A stretch of 39,822 bases of DNA, taken from positions 1 to 39,822 of the forward strand of contig JAJZCB010000026.1 of NCBI GenBank assembly GCA_021846285.1, given 5' to 3'. This document shows positions 19,312 to 27,571 of this stretch, in pieces. Each line of letters begins with the position of its first letter. Positions within the stretch are counted from its first letter, which is position 1. A program made the position numbers and the translations under genes. Source of the stretch: Bacillota bacterium (GTDB lineage: Bacteria; Bacillota; Bacilli; Alicyclobacillales; SLC66). Below the pieces are notes generated by a model. The model searched no databases. It had not been told where the DNA came from and saw only the letters and a list, made by a program, of their open reading frames with translations.

Positions 19312-20346
19312 CTAAATTTTTCGATACTTGCGCAACGCAAAGACGTTCAGTGCCATAAAGACCAGCGACATCGCCAGCAATACGCAGAGATCTGGCCATA
19401 TGGCGGAAAATCCCTTGCCGCGAATCATGACGTTGCGTAGTGCGTCCGCCCCATAGTACAGCGGCATAATCTCGCTCAGTCGGCGCATCCAGGGCGCCAT
19501 GTTGTCAACGCTGAACAAACCCGAAAAGAAAATTTGCGGCACAATGACGATGGGGATGAACTGCATCATCTGAAACTCAGAATTAGCGAAAGCCGAAAGC
19601 AGCGTACCGAGAGTCAATGCCGTCATGGAGAGCAATAAAGTCACTGACAACAGGTACAAGAATTGTCCATTCATCATCATCCCGAGGACACCCACGGCAA
19701 ACCATGCAATGAGACAAGCCTGAACCATCGTAAATATTCCATAGCCCACCACATATCCCGCAACCATTTCCCAGCGTCTGAGCGGCGTCGCCATGAGCCG
19801 TTCCAGGGTGCCTGTGGTACGCTCCTTCAAAAATGCAATCCCGGCTATCAGAAAGACGAAGAAGAAGGCGAACACCCCAATCAGTACCGGACCGAAGTTG
19901 TCGAACGACGACATAGTGGCGGATCCGTACAGATAACGAATCACCGGAGGCTGCATTTGGCTGGGCGCCGGATTGGCTGGTTGCAGCAGGACCTTCTGCA
20001 CCAAAAGCAGAACTGTCTTGCTCTTTGACGGATTGCTTCCTTCGAGGGTGATGTGGGGAACTCCGCCTGCGAAACTGATGGCGGCGTCGAGCTTCTGCAA
20101 AGATAAAGCGTTCAGCGCTGCGGCATTTGAGGAGTAGGACTGCACGACGGCCCCCTGATTGTCGAGGCTTACCACAATGTGCCGGGGAATATCAACGGCG
20201 CCAATTTTGGGATGGTACGTGTTCCCGTTAAAGATGAGCGCCACCAACCACAGAATCAGCAGTGGAGCCAGGATCATGAGCGCCAACGTACGCTTGTCGT
20301 GAAAGAATTGACGTACAATTCGCAGAATCAGTGAACGCACTCTCAT
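19312..20346 (-). CDS. ABC-2 family transporter permease
   Basis: A 344-aa ABC-2 type membrane protein with one N-terminal helix (residues about 20-40), a long extracytoplasmic domain (about 45-160) and five C-terminal helices. The layout is that of the YhfJ/YfiN/LinB type drug, lipid or polysaccharide exporters. The ATG start overlaps the ATPase stop by 4 bp (ATGA), and the TetR gene follows. With the upstream ATPase it should form a homodimeric exporter. The Pro-Leu-Tyr-Tyr-Gly-Ala-Asp-Ala-Leu-Arg segment before the last helix is a common ABC-2 feature. Substrate is unknown; a toxic compound sensed by the TetR protein is the simplest idea. Confidence 0.88.
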   Translation of the reverse strand: MRVRSLILRIVRQFFHDKRTLALMILAPLLILWLVALIFNGNTYHPKIGAVDIPRHIVVSLDNQGAVVQSYSSNAAALNALSLQKLDAAISFAGGVPHITLEGSNPSKSKTVLLLVQKVLLQPANPAPSQMQPPVIRYLYGSATMSSFDNFGPVLIGVFAFFFVFLIAGIAFLKERTTGTLERLMATPLRRWEMVAGYVVGYGIFTMVQACLIAWFAVGVLGMMMNGQFLYLLSVTLLLSMTALTLGTLLSAFANSEFQMMQFIPIVIVPQIFFSGLFSVDNMAPWMRRLSEIMPLYYGADALRNVMIRGKGFSAIWPDLCVLLAMSLVFMALNVFALRKYRKI

Positions 20347-21089
20347 TTCCTGACACCCCCATACACCAGATACGCGTCTTCCAAGGTCTGCGATCCCGTA
20401 CTCTGCTTCAATTCATCCGGCGCCCCCACGGCTATCATCTGTCCATCGCGAATCATACCGAGCCGGGTGCATTTTTCCGCCTCGTCCATCACGTGTGTGG
20501 TCAAAAGAATGGTCGTACCGGATTGGCTGAGATTGCGCAACTCATCCCAAATCGATTTACGAAGCACCGGATCGATGCCTACCGTGGGTTCATCCAGAAT
20601 CAACATCTGCGGGCGATGGAGCAGCGCGATGGCGAGCGAGAGACGTCGCTTCATGCCGCCTGAGTATGTGGCTATGGGGCGTTTGAGGAAGTTGGCCAGA
20701 TTGACCAGTTGCATCACTTCCTCAATCCGTTGCTTGCGGACGGCGCCATTCAAACCTACGAGAGCCGCAAAGAAAGCAAGATTTTCCAATGCCGTCAATT
20801 CACTATACAGCGCATCGGACTGCGCCATGTACCCAATGTTGTTCAGCATGTTCAAATTGGGCATGCGGACGCCGCTCACATAAACCTCTCCATTTGAAGG
20901 CTCGGCCATTCCGGCAATGAGCTTTACGAGGGTCGTCTTGCCGGATCCGGACGGTCCCAGCAGACCAAATACCTCGTTGGCCTTCACTTCCATAGTGATG
21001 TCCTTCAAAACGCTGACTTTGCCGAATCTCTTGTCAACATGAATCACTTTAATTCCCGGTTGAATCTGCGAGGTCTGTTCACCATACAT
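20343..21089 (-). CDS. ABC transporter ATP-binding protein (DrrA/CcmA type)
   Basis: A 248-aa ATPase with Walker A Gly-Pro-Ser-Gly-Ser-Gly-Lys-Thr-Thr, signature Tyr-Ser-Gly-Gly-Met-Lys-Arg-Arg, and Walker B Leu-Ile-Leu-Asp-Glu-Pro-Thr-Val-Gly-Ile-Asp, typical of exporters of the DrrA/CcmA group. The ATG at 21089 lies nine bases after GGAGG. Longer in-frame starts up to 21122 would run through the operator and are not preferred; an ATG at 21098 directly abuts the ribosome site. It is first in the efflux operon. Confidence 0.9.
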   Translation of the reverse strand: MYGEQTSQIQPGIKVIHVDKRFGKVSVLKDITMEVKANEVFGLLGPSGSGKTTLVKLIAGMAEPSNGEVYVSGVRMPNLNMLNNIGYMAQSDALYSELTALENLAFFAALVGLNGAVRKQRIEEVMQLVNLANFLKRPIATYSGGMKRRLSLAIALLHRPQMLILDEPTVGIDPVLRKSIWDELRNLSQSGTTILLTTHVMDEAEKCTRLGMIRDGQMIAVGAPDELKQSTGSQTLEDAYLVYGGVRK

Positions 21090-21108
21090 CGCATCCATCC
21101 TCCATTCA

Positions 21109-21124
21109 GAGTGAGTACTCACTC
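21109..21124. promoter_or_regulatory. Perfect palindromic TetR operator
   Basis: GAGTGAGTACTCACTC is a 16-bp perfect palindrome of the TGAGTGA/TCACTCA type bound by several TetR proteins. It begins 4 bp after the -10 of the efflux promoter, over the transcription start. Confidence 0.78.
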
Positions 21125-21155: not shown

Positions 21156-21219
21156 GCGACACATGGTGTTACGGTCGCATGCACAGGGGCGATGAAATAC
21201 AGGGTAGATGGCCATGTCT

Positions 21220-21256
21220 GAGTTTTGCGAAGCAAAATCTCACCGCTTCGCGGCAC
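21220..21256. repeat. Two small GNA-loop hairpins beside the structured repeats
   Basis: TTTTGC-GAA-GCAAAA (21223-21237, plus strand) and CCGC-GAA-GCGG (read on the minus strand, 21253-21243). Both have the GCGAAGC core with different stems. They border the tandem copies that follow, and the linker between copies 1 and 2 has the same core. Confidence 0.6.
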
Positions 21257-21260
21257 GATC

Positions 21261-21398
21261 AGCAGGATGGAAAAAACCCGCTCCTAAGGATTCATGTGCT
21301 GCGCCCGTCGCGAGTTCGGCGTAGCCGTGTCTGAGCAGGGGCACAGCACATGAATCCGGTCGACAGGGACATTTTTCACGATAGACATCCATGCTGCT
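21261..21398 (-). repeat. Structured repeat element, copy 1
   Basis: Nested dyads: AGCAG (21261-21265) with CTGCT (21394-21398); GAAAAA (21270-21275) with TTTTTC (21372-21377); and a 19-bp stem of 21288-21306 with 21339-21357 with one non-Watson-Crick pair. The 32-nt apical part holds GCGAGTT (21310-21316), mini-hairpin CGGC-gta-GCCG (21317-21327) and CTGAGC. Compared with copy 2 the apical part is nearly unchanged while the stem sequence is unrelated. Orientation is given as the strand on which the odd pair is a G-U wobble. No reading frame is apparent. Confidence 0.75.
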
Positions 21399-21408
21399 TC
21401 GCAGCACC
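21390..21408 (-). repeat. Linker hairpin between structured repeat copies 1 and 2
   Basis: On the minus strand GCTGC-GAA-GCAGC, embedded in a 19-nt block that recurs at 7067-7085 with one change, which is in the loop (GAA to GCA). Both loops belong to the GNA triloop class. Confidence 0.65.
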
Positions 21409-21415
21409 ATCAATT

Positions 21416-21535
21416 GATGAAAAACCCGCTTGGCTGGGATCGTATACTGTGCCGAGGCGAGTTCGGCGCAGCCGTGGTTGAGCAGCGGCACAGTATACGA
21501 TCCCGGCGGGCAGGGAAGGTATTTTTCGGGATAGA
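21416..21535 (-). repeat. Structured repeat element, copy 2
   Basis: GAAAAA (21419-21424) pairs with TTTTTC (21522-21527), CCCGC (21425-21429) with GCGGG (21506-21510), and a perfect 19-bp stem forms from 21436-21454 and 21486-21504. The apical part has GCGAGTT (21457-21463), CGGC-gca-GCCG (21464-21474) and TTGAGC (21478-21483), as in copy 1. It starts 6 bp after the uppP stop codon, so on the minus strand it would be the 3' end of the uppP transcript. Confidence 0.78.
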
Positions 21536-21540
21536 GTGCA

Positions 21541-22389
21541 TTAAAGTCTGATGAGAGCCGCAATGGGCGCCAAAAGGGTTATTACTGCAATAACAAAAGT
21601 CACGACGGAAGTTCGCAACTTTTTTGCCAGTCTCAGCACTCCATTGATGGCCAGAAATGAGATGATGGCGGCCACGAGCAGCATAATCAGGGTAGCTCCC
21701 CAACCGAATTGAAGAACGGCCGTTTGCCCTCCCTTGCCGATGACAACAGGCACGACCCCTGCGCCAAGCAGGGCCAGCACGTCAAGCATGAAGGATAAAC
21801 GTATCGATTCCTCGCCGGAAAAACCCATCCAGAGAAGAGGGGTAATGGTCATCCCGCTCCGGCTTATACCGGGCAAAGCCGCCAATCCTTGCATCGCCCC
21901 GGTGACGAGAGCCGACACTGCTGTGACCGGTCTTCCTCTTGTCGTCGATGTCGCGGCATTCTTCATCATCTGTTCCTTGCGTCTGGCAATAAATGCGGTG
22001 ATCAAGAGAAGCACTCCGATGATGATCATTGCAATGGACCCGCCGACAAGACTGAAGGTACTCAGGATGGTTACATAAAGCGGAATGCCGACGACGCCCG
22101 TGGCCAGGGTTCCGACAAACAAGAAGCGAAGCAGGCGGGCATTTGGTTCGTCCGCGAACGGATGCCTGAGGGCTTTAACGACTCCCCAAGCCTCGTATCG
22201 AAAATAGTACAAAGCGGCAAAGAATGACCCTAGATTAGCAATCAATCCTAGATTGTATGCGCTTTGTACATTAATGCCTATTACAGAGAAGTAAAGTGTG
22301 ATCATGGTTTTGCTGCTGACTGGCAGCCATTCAACAATCCCCTCAATTACACCAGCCACAAGGGCCGGAATCAGATGTGAATGTGTCAC
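21541..22389 (-). CDS. uppP: Undecaprenyl-diphosphatase (UppP/BacA family)
   Basis: A 282-aa polytopic membrane enzyme that dephosphorylates undecaprenyl diphosphate to recycle the lipid carrier of cell-wall synthesis; extra copies give bacitracin tolerance. Both family motifs are present: Glu16 and Glu20 in Gly-Val-Ile-Glu-Gly-Ile-Val-Glu-Trp-Leu-Pro-Val-Ser-Ser, and Pro-Gly-Ile-Ser-Arg-Ser-Gly-Met-Thr. About eight hydrophobic segments follow the family pattern. I start it at the GTG at 22389, seven bases after GGAGG; a GTG at 22416 would add nine residues that include the ribosome site. The ribosome site lies inside a perfect palindrome. It stands alone, with structured repeats immediately downstream. 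Confidence 0.88.
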   Translation of the reverse strand: MTHSHLIPALVAGVIEGIVEWLPVSSKTMITLYFSVIGINVQSAYNLGLIANLGSFFAALYYFRYEAWGVVKALRHPFADEPNARLLRFLFVGTLATGVVGIPLYVTILSTFSLVGGSIAMIIIGVLLLITAFIARRKEQMMKNAATSTTRGRPVTAVSALVTGAMQGLAALPGISRSGMTITPLLWMGFSGEESIRLSFMLDVLALLGAGVVPVVIGKGGQTAVLQFGWGATLIMLLVAAIISFLAINGVLRLAKKLRTSVVTFVIAVITLLAPIAALIRL

Positions 22390-22403
22390 TTGGAGGCCTC
22401 CAA
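22390..22403. promoter_or_regulatory. Palindrome containing the uppP ribosome binding site
   Basis: TTGGAGGCCTCCAA is a perfect 14-bp palindrome ending at the GTG start. GGAGG forms one half, so in mRNA it could pair between two transcripts, or it may be a protein site. Chance is possible. Confidence 0.35.
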
Positions 22404-22525
22404 ACGGTATGGTCACTTAACGGCTTGTCTCCTATTATATCAAATAAAGTATAGCGATTCTGCCTGGTCGTCAAAAGGTTGTCTTTTCACATGCCGCCGT
22501 TCGAAGATGTGATGTTTTCTGTATT

Positions 22526-27444: not shown

Positions 27445-27571
27445 GAAAATACGGCCGTTCCTGCCATGCCAGGACGGATCATGCATTGTACTACCGCTCA
27501 AACAGGTGCGGCCCAAAGGCCGCAAAACTCGCTGCAGTGCAATCCATGATCCGTCCTGGCGAGTCATTTTT
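27445..27571 (+). repeat. Structured repeat element, copy 3
   Basis: AAAAT (27446-27450) pairs with ATTTT (27566-27570). A 23-bp stem forms between 27469-27491 and 27537-27559 with one mismatch and one G-U pair. The apical part has GCTCAA (27496-27501), a GC-only hairpin (27508-27513 with 27518-27523) and AACTCGC (27526-27532), the same order as copies 1 and 2 read on the minus strand. The upstream GAAAATAC and CCTGCC blocks are also shared. Stem sequence is unrelated to the other copies. It lies in the xylB/deoR divergent region, between the predicted xylB transcription start and its start codon. Confidence 0.7.

Follow-up and report, generated by a model that had tools for sequence, protein, structure and literature searches.

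Dispersed palindromic repeats are known in many bacteria, and the recognition described for them consists of a fixed motif at the hairpin foot together with a transposase. GTAG REPs are 20–40 bp long, with stems of 5–13 bp, a GTAG that never varies at the foot and a Y1 transposase linked to the repeats (PMC3733652, PMC8266576). CGTC-tagged REPs carry CGTC at the outer end of a stem of 8–9 bp with a loop of 4–5 bases, and are reported from five phyla which do not include Firmicutes (PMC3733652). The BOX elements of Streptococcus (boxA-boxB-boxC) are modular, dispersed and intergenic, with a strongly folding transcript, a variable number of modules and an uncertain mover (PMC3049150).

The hairpin repeats described here lie in a stretch of 39,822 nucleotides of Bacillota DNA (the window, meaning the whole stretch that was analysed), and they are closest in behaviour to the REP/BIME repeats and the BOX elements. 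Like the REP, BIME and REPIN repeats of the RAYT systems, they are high-copy, extragenic, palindromic, arranged in tandem or in clusters, patchily distributed and built on family-specific stems. However, REP membership fails because foot motif, stem length and transposase link all differ: the stem here is 19–25 bp long, the tip is the invariant part, no transposase is linked, and GTAG is present at the hairpin foot in none of the aligned copies. With the CGTC-tagged REPs our repeats have in common that they are palindromes without a linked transposase and that CGTC is found in subfamilies A and D, but their stems are again 19–25 bp long and the CGTC is internal, adjoining the core near the tip, and absent from subfamilies B and C. 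The architecture of BOX is alike when compared by description (PMC3049150) rather than by sequence, but terminal inverted repeats and target duplications are features of BOX and neither is seen here. Integron attC sites are also folded single-stranded DNA hairpins in which the stem varies while pairing is kept. An attC site was nevertheless rejected on anatomy, as the original prediction had argued, because conserved R and L boxes with a variable tip are the opposite of the pattern found here, where the tip is kept and the base varies. What appears to be new is a recognition unit formed by a folded tip whose supporting stem can vary almost freely, with no visible mover. No description of these repeats was found in the open-access literature. 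The suggestion that they belong to no Rfam family agrees with our searches of the window and five further loci, which gave no match on the repeats at gathering score; in E-value scans, all that came up besides real tRNAs were hairpin families, for the most part microRNA and snoRNA, with scores under the gathering threshold.

The window contains three copies, two of which stand in tandem between an ABC transporter gene and uppP. The features are as follows.

20343..21122, minus strand: ABC transporter ATP-binding gene; hairpins 1 and 2 are antisense to it
21206..21269, plus strand: left module of the tandem unit, GTAGATGGCCATG, palindrome CTGAGTTTTGCGAAGCAAAATCTCA, CTTCGCGGCACGATCAG
21270..21377, plus strand: copy 1 with basal flanks, GAAAAAACCCGCTC ... 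GACAGGGACATTTTTC
21288..21357, plus strand: copy 1, subfamily A, a 19-bp stem with one C.A mismatch enclosing the apical domain
21288-21306/21339-21357: arms of copy 1, 18/19 Watson-Crick
21310..21336, plus strand: apical domain of copy 1, GCGAGTT CGGC GTA GCCG TGTCTGAGC
21378..21418, plus strand: linker module between copies 1 and 2, GATAGACATCCATG CTGCTTCGCAGC ACCATCAATT
21419..21534, plus strand: copy 2 with basal flanks; its right end TTTTTCGGGATAG is where the repeated module usually stops on the right
21436..21504, plus strand: copy 2, subfamily B, a 19-bp stem without mismatch enclosing the apical domain
21436-21454/21486-21504: arms of copy 2, 19/19 Watson-Crick
21457..21483, plus strand: apical domain of copy 2, GCGAGTT CGGC GCA GCCG TGGTTGAGC
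21541..22416, minus strand: uppP (BacA family); the folded strand of copies 1 and 2 is antisense to it
27458..27566, minus strand: copy 3, subfamily C, a longer stem with the tip GCGAGTTTT-GCGGCC..GGGCCGC-ACCTGTTTGAGC

Both tandem hairpins, with the arm pairing tabulated above, lie where the original prediction had placed them. The covariance model R1, for which 41 copies were used, matches copy 1 at 21275-21374 with 95.4 bits and copy 2 at 21423-21521 with 99.1 bits. The unit proposed at 27445-27571 on the other strand, our copy 3, is also a true family member by model match, and the congener G001 has a copy at the same site (L095) with a stem differing by a paired change. In the TGGTTGAGC part of its tip, copy 2 has a G in place of the T typical of most copies. 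The tip pattern GCGAGTT...TGAGC is found three times in the window against an expectation of 0.21 (0 of 100 shuffles). The folding energy of the 275-base stretch with the tandem pair has a z-score of -8.8 with the minus strand folded, none of 200 dinucleotide shuffles being as low, and both strands fold. The stems of copies 1 and 2, which had been called unrelated, are identical at 12 of 19 positions and changed on both sides at six, so they are better regarded as diverged relatives with compensatory changes; stems of low resemblance do occur elsewhere, especially in a distant genus. The basal pairing of GAAAAA with TTTTTC, also thought to be kept, frames the window copies, with the T-run lying 14–17 bases beyond the stem. 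However, this base is not universal in the family, many copies having TTTTCC or none.

Searching 770 kb of the window's own genome (G000) with R1 gave 64 copies at 53 bits or more, a density biased upward since the 770 kb were chosen around known copies. Counting only copies beyond one per stretch suggests a total of the order of 100, in a census that rests on model searches and on stretches chosen around known copies. In the genus, all three species (G000 and the congeners G001 and G002) have at least 67 R1 matches each, and two other genera of the family have 41 (G010) and 12 (G005), whereas no copies were found with R1 in the remaining family members searched or in 41 genomes of the sister family. 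The tip pattern alone gives 86 matches in G000 against 22 for a reversed control; most of these are unmistakable copies and some are chance. The weaker R1 matches in the 770 kb, none above 43 bits, all seem to come from the opposite strand of copies, and half-decayed copies are thus very scarce in this DNA. GCGAGTT, a mini-hairpin and TGTYTGAGC make up the conserved tip of the family, and the subfamilies differ in the stem and the mini-hairpin. One copy (L016) is a hybrid that joins a subfamily B left arm to a subfamily A right arm. Tandem units have the module edge GGGATAGAC in common; the module edges TAGAC..CATG and CGGGATAG do not form inverted repeats.

In the alignment of 41 copies, 17 of the 18 stem pairs have changed on both sides while 92.4% of the cells remain paired. 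The covariation score is 0.587, compared with 0.08–0.18 when the partners are slid by 1–3 columns and 0.21 for shuffles. Stem mismatches read on the GCGAGTT strand comprise 38 G-T and nine A-C (p 2.5e-5 if the counts are taken as independent); when only distinct combinations of type and position are counted, they are 18 and 8 (p 0.08). Because G-T exceeds A-C on the GCGAGTT strand, this is probably the folding strand, as RNA or as single-stranded DNA. The covariation and the mismatch asymmetry bear out the earlier argument for selection on a folded strand. That argument had listed a lack of further copies, a lack of covariation or a match to a known family as grounds for abandoning it. Further copies were predicted and were recovered in G000 and its relatives, covariation is present, and the repeats matched no known family.

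A scan of 398 Bacillota genomes with R1 gave an unexpected match in G089, a genome from a different class than that of the window. A related core, GCGTTTGACA-AGCY-TGTCTAAGC, has 47 exact copies there, and their stems, 20–28 bp long, differ strongly from one copy to another. Two congeners of G089 have four and three copies of this second core, and in G331, which belongs to this genus too, at least six sites have altered mini-hairpins, most of which still pair (for example GACG..CGTC). Over 23 copies of the second lineage, 20 of 23 stem pairs covary, with a score of 0.568 against 0.10–0.16 for slid partners. The columns common to both lineages include, on the two sides of the mini-hairpin, GCG and most of TGTCT-A-GC. 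The invariance of the second core is partly due to ascertainment, its copies having been collected by core pattern. When long hairpins were sought at these loci without use of the core, 21 of 22 proved to have the core or a close variant of it, at loci that had themselves been fetched via the core. The common design of the two lineages may be homologous or convergent; such a likeness across distant classes points to a putative factor reading the folded tip. The tandem G-A of the first core had suggested a kink-turn, an idea that was dropped because the second lineage is without tandem G-A. Two further families of the phylum gave one weak match each to the model of the second lineage (L339 in G429 and L340 in G225), which could be due to chance.

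With genes called by a simple hexamer gene finder, 60 of the 64 copies lie outside predicted genes, in DNA that is 83% coding. Of the 44 copies between codirectional genes, 35 are in mRNA sense and nine are antisense (p 1e-4; 29:7 with tandem copies merged). Convergent gaps contain nine copies and divergent gaps seven. The element strand has a positive GC skew for 35 of the 44 codirectional copies but for only 6 of the 16 copies in convergent and divergent gaps (Fisher p 0.004). As the skew bias is gone in the latter, it is apparently transcription and not replication that governs the orientation bias, and a replication-strand cause is disfavoured. The original prediction had offered a 3' UTR element, a small RNA or a mobile hairpin element. 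The first two fit poorly, since copies occur in codirectional, convergent and divergent gaps and the window pair is antisense to both of its neighbours; the third is the best fit among these options.

Comparison of orthologous sites reveals turnover of whole copies. At the uppP site, G001 (L101) aligns with the window up to 21205 and resumes at 21534, with about 100 unrelated bases between. The more distant congener G002 has a copy-free gap at five of ten sites examined (L009, L017, L019, L027 and L028). A clean empty site with a target duplication was not found among them, the uppP site having unrelated bases and the others differing beyond the element. Of 37 sites matched on both flanks between G000 and G001, 30 have copies of the same subfamily and seven of different ones, two of these seven lying in a single tandem cluster where the matching of copies is uncertain. 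The 30 same-subfamily sites contain seven direct double changes from one Watson-Crick pair to another, including A:T to C:G, in genomes which are about 95% identical, and 26 one-sided changes, of which 16 are between Watson-Crick and G-T. The G-T intermediates on the one hand, and the subfamily swaps and the hybrid copy on the other, indicate that compensation via G-T and wholesale copy exchange both contribute. The exchange of whole copies between subfamilies at orthologous sites implies that conversion or re-insertion, and not site-by-site compensation, accounts for some of the stem replacement. The statement that simple duplication would not produce such stems was therefore too strong.

Sequences that might supply a mover were sought around the copies and in collections of mobile DNA. 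No candidate for a recurrent protein gene was seen beside the copies, and the short recurrent matches examined there were ORFs of the repeat itself. Plasmid and phage collections contained no copies. Viral contigs gave 35 matches to the tip pattern, none with a convincing paired stem, and no match to the second core; the best of the viral matches, L258 (22 bits) and L269 (20 bits), have broken stems and were taken as chance. Reverse transcriptase PF00078 is absent from the carriers G000 (98% complete), G010, G089 and G331, and an element moved by reverse transcriptase (SINE-like, retron or DGR) was rejected on this ground.

We consider it probable, at roughly 0.6, that these repeats constitute a new non-autonomous REP/BOX-like hairpin family whose folded-strand tip is recognised in trans and whose turnover proceeds by insertion, loss and gene conversion. 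Anatomy, dispersal and turnover are directly evident from the copies, whereas the transposition step, the trans-acting protein and the chemistry of insertion are inferred. Two results count against this reading: none of the sites compared was a clean empty site with a target duplication, and no enzyme was found linked to the copies. In the proposed mechanism, the folded GCGAGTT strand would use a long stem of almost free sequence to present a fixed apical domain, in which a G-C/C-G step and an asymmetric internal loop are followed by a small hairpin and then TGTYTGAGC. A putative trans-acting protein might bind this domain on the folded strand, as single-stranded DNA during spread and as RNA when transcribed, so that the stem, as a rigid support, would be required only to pair, and the tip would be recognised by its sequence and its shape. 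Spread would occur by a rare insertion step, after which copies might be homogenised or swapped through gene conversion among themselves. Where transcribed, the hairpin would be part of intercistronic mRNA. It is also conceivable, though we regard this larger proposal with some doubt, that both lineages represent a class of Bacillota hairpins that depends neither on Y1/RAYT enzymes nor on reverse transcription, in which the putative protein reads only the tip, the tip code spans two classes and the stems are rewritable by arm-to-arm templating or conversion. Recognition through the tip would make a concrete hunt for the protein possible, and the repeats offer a natural system in which the co-evolution of inverted-repeat arms can be measured as selection versus templated correction.

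The main rival to a family recognised in trans is an intercistronic RNA element useful to the host, for example a processing or stability site for an RNA-binding protein, with selection keeping each copy. The sense bias and the scarcity of decayed copies would be equally well explained if every copy served the host in this way, and such an element would also accord with a bias tracking transcription rather than replication, with the toleration of G-T pairs on the GCGAGTT strand and with the copy located between rpsE and rpmD in a ribosomal protein operon. However, the nine antisense copies in codirectional gaps, both uppP ones included, are intact, seven copies occupy divergent gaps, half of the examined sites are copy-free in a congener and subfamilies swap at single sites, and we consider a host element a serious but rather unlikely explanation. 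The presence of the copy between rpsE and rpmD also argues against a bidirectional intrinsic terminator formed by A-run, stem and T-run. Although GAAAAA ... TTTTTC around the window copies is suggestive of one, no T-run follows immediately after the GC-rich hairpin, the T-run being displaced, replaced by TTTTCC or missing, and the divergent gaps contain copies as well. A terminator was rejected on this anatomy and appears highly improbable.

A Y1 transposase of the IS200/IS605 or RAYT type might act in trans on the single-stranded DNA hairpin, which would make the repeats REP/REPIN-like with an unusual recognition. Y1 enzymes are known to contact loop and bulge features of hairpins (PMC8266576), and Y1 genes are present in all carriers tested (2–13) and more numerous there than in presumed non-carriers (0–5; Mann-Whitney p 0.003), the carrier labels being those of the first model and G331, outside that carrier set, having later been found to carry copies. 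However, the non-carriers have Y1 genes as well, genomes rich in insertion sequences would correlate without causation, the GTAG foot is lacking, and the Y1 loci fetched in carriers, with flanks of up to 1.5 kb, contained no copy by pattern or model. We therefore regard a Y1 mover as distinctly unlikely. A different account attributes the matched stem changes mainly to mutation, through arm-templated correction of quasi-palindromes or through copies overwriting each other. The seven direct double changes at orthologous sites of such similar genomes speak for it, as do the hybrid and subfamily-swapped copies. But the one-sided changes, many of them to or from G-T, occur too, arm copying does not predict the excess of G-T over A-C, and it leaves the asymmetric conserved apical domain unexplained; as the main cause of the paired changes, mutation seems improbable to us.

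Modules like those at 21206..21269 stand before many copies elsewhere in the genome. The 25-bp palindrome CTGAGTTTTGCGAAGCAAAATCTCA (window 21218-21242; also L001, L020, L024 and many other loci) is an optional module before hairpins, and at one orthologous site (L005/L129) it is present in one genome while the other has a short GGCGCTTCGCGCC hairpin. A small palindromic module, GAAAAAGCGYCTGCRGCGTTTTTC, stands just before the copy at L004, L022, L075, L081 and L092, and its relative GGGAAGAAAATACGCCTGCGGCGATTTTCCGGGATAGA has dozens of matches in G001 and G002. In the rpsE-rpmD gap (L001, G000:C2), the left module edge GGGATAGAC coincides with the rpsE stop codon TAG, and the left module begins at or just after a stop codon also at L009, L012, L017, L027 and L030. 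Three tandem copies are found at L076 (G000:C97:20070-20690), the middle one being without most of its left arm. At L146/L160 (G002:C215), tandem repeats of about 33–36 bases (around GCGTCTGCAGAGGGTGAGAAGTCAGTCCGCATGATTG) take up the whole gap that in G000 and G001 contains a hairpin copy. The copies of G005 at L037, L042, L046, L050 and L054 have a different outer part, with GAGCAAATTTGTGC or its complement GCACAAATTTGCTCAAAAAGG on either side.
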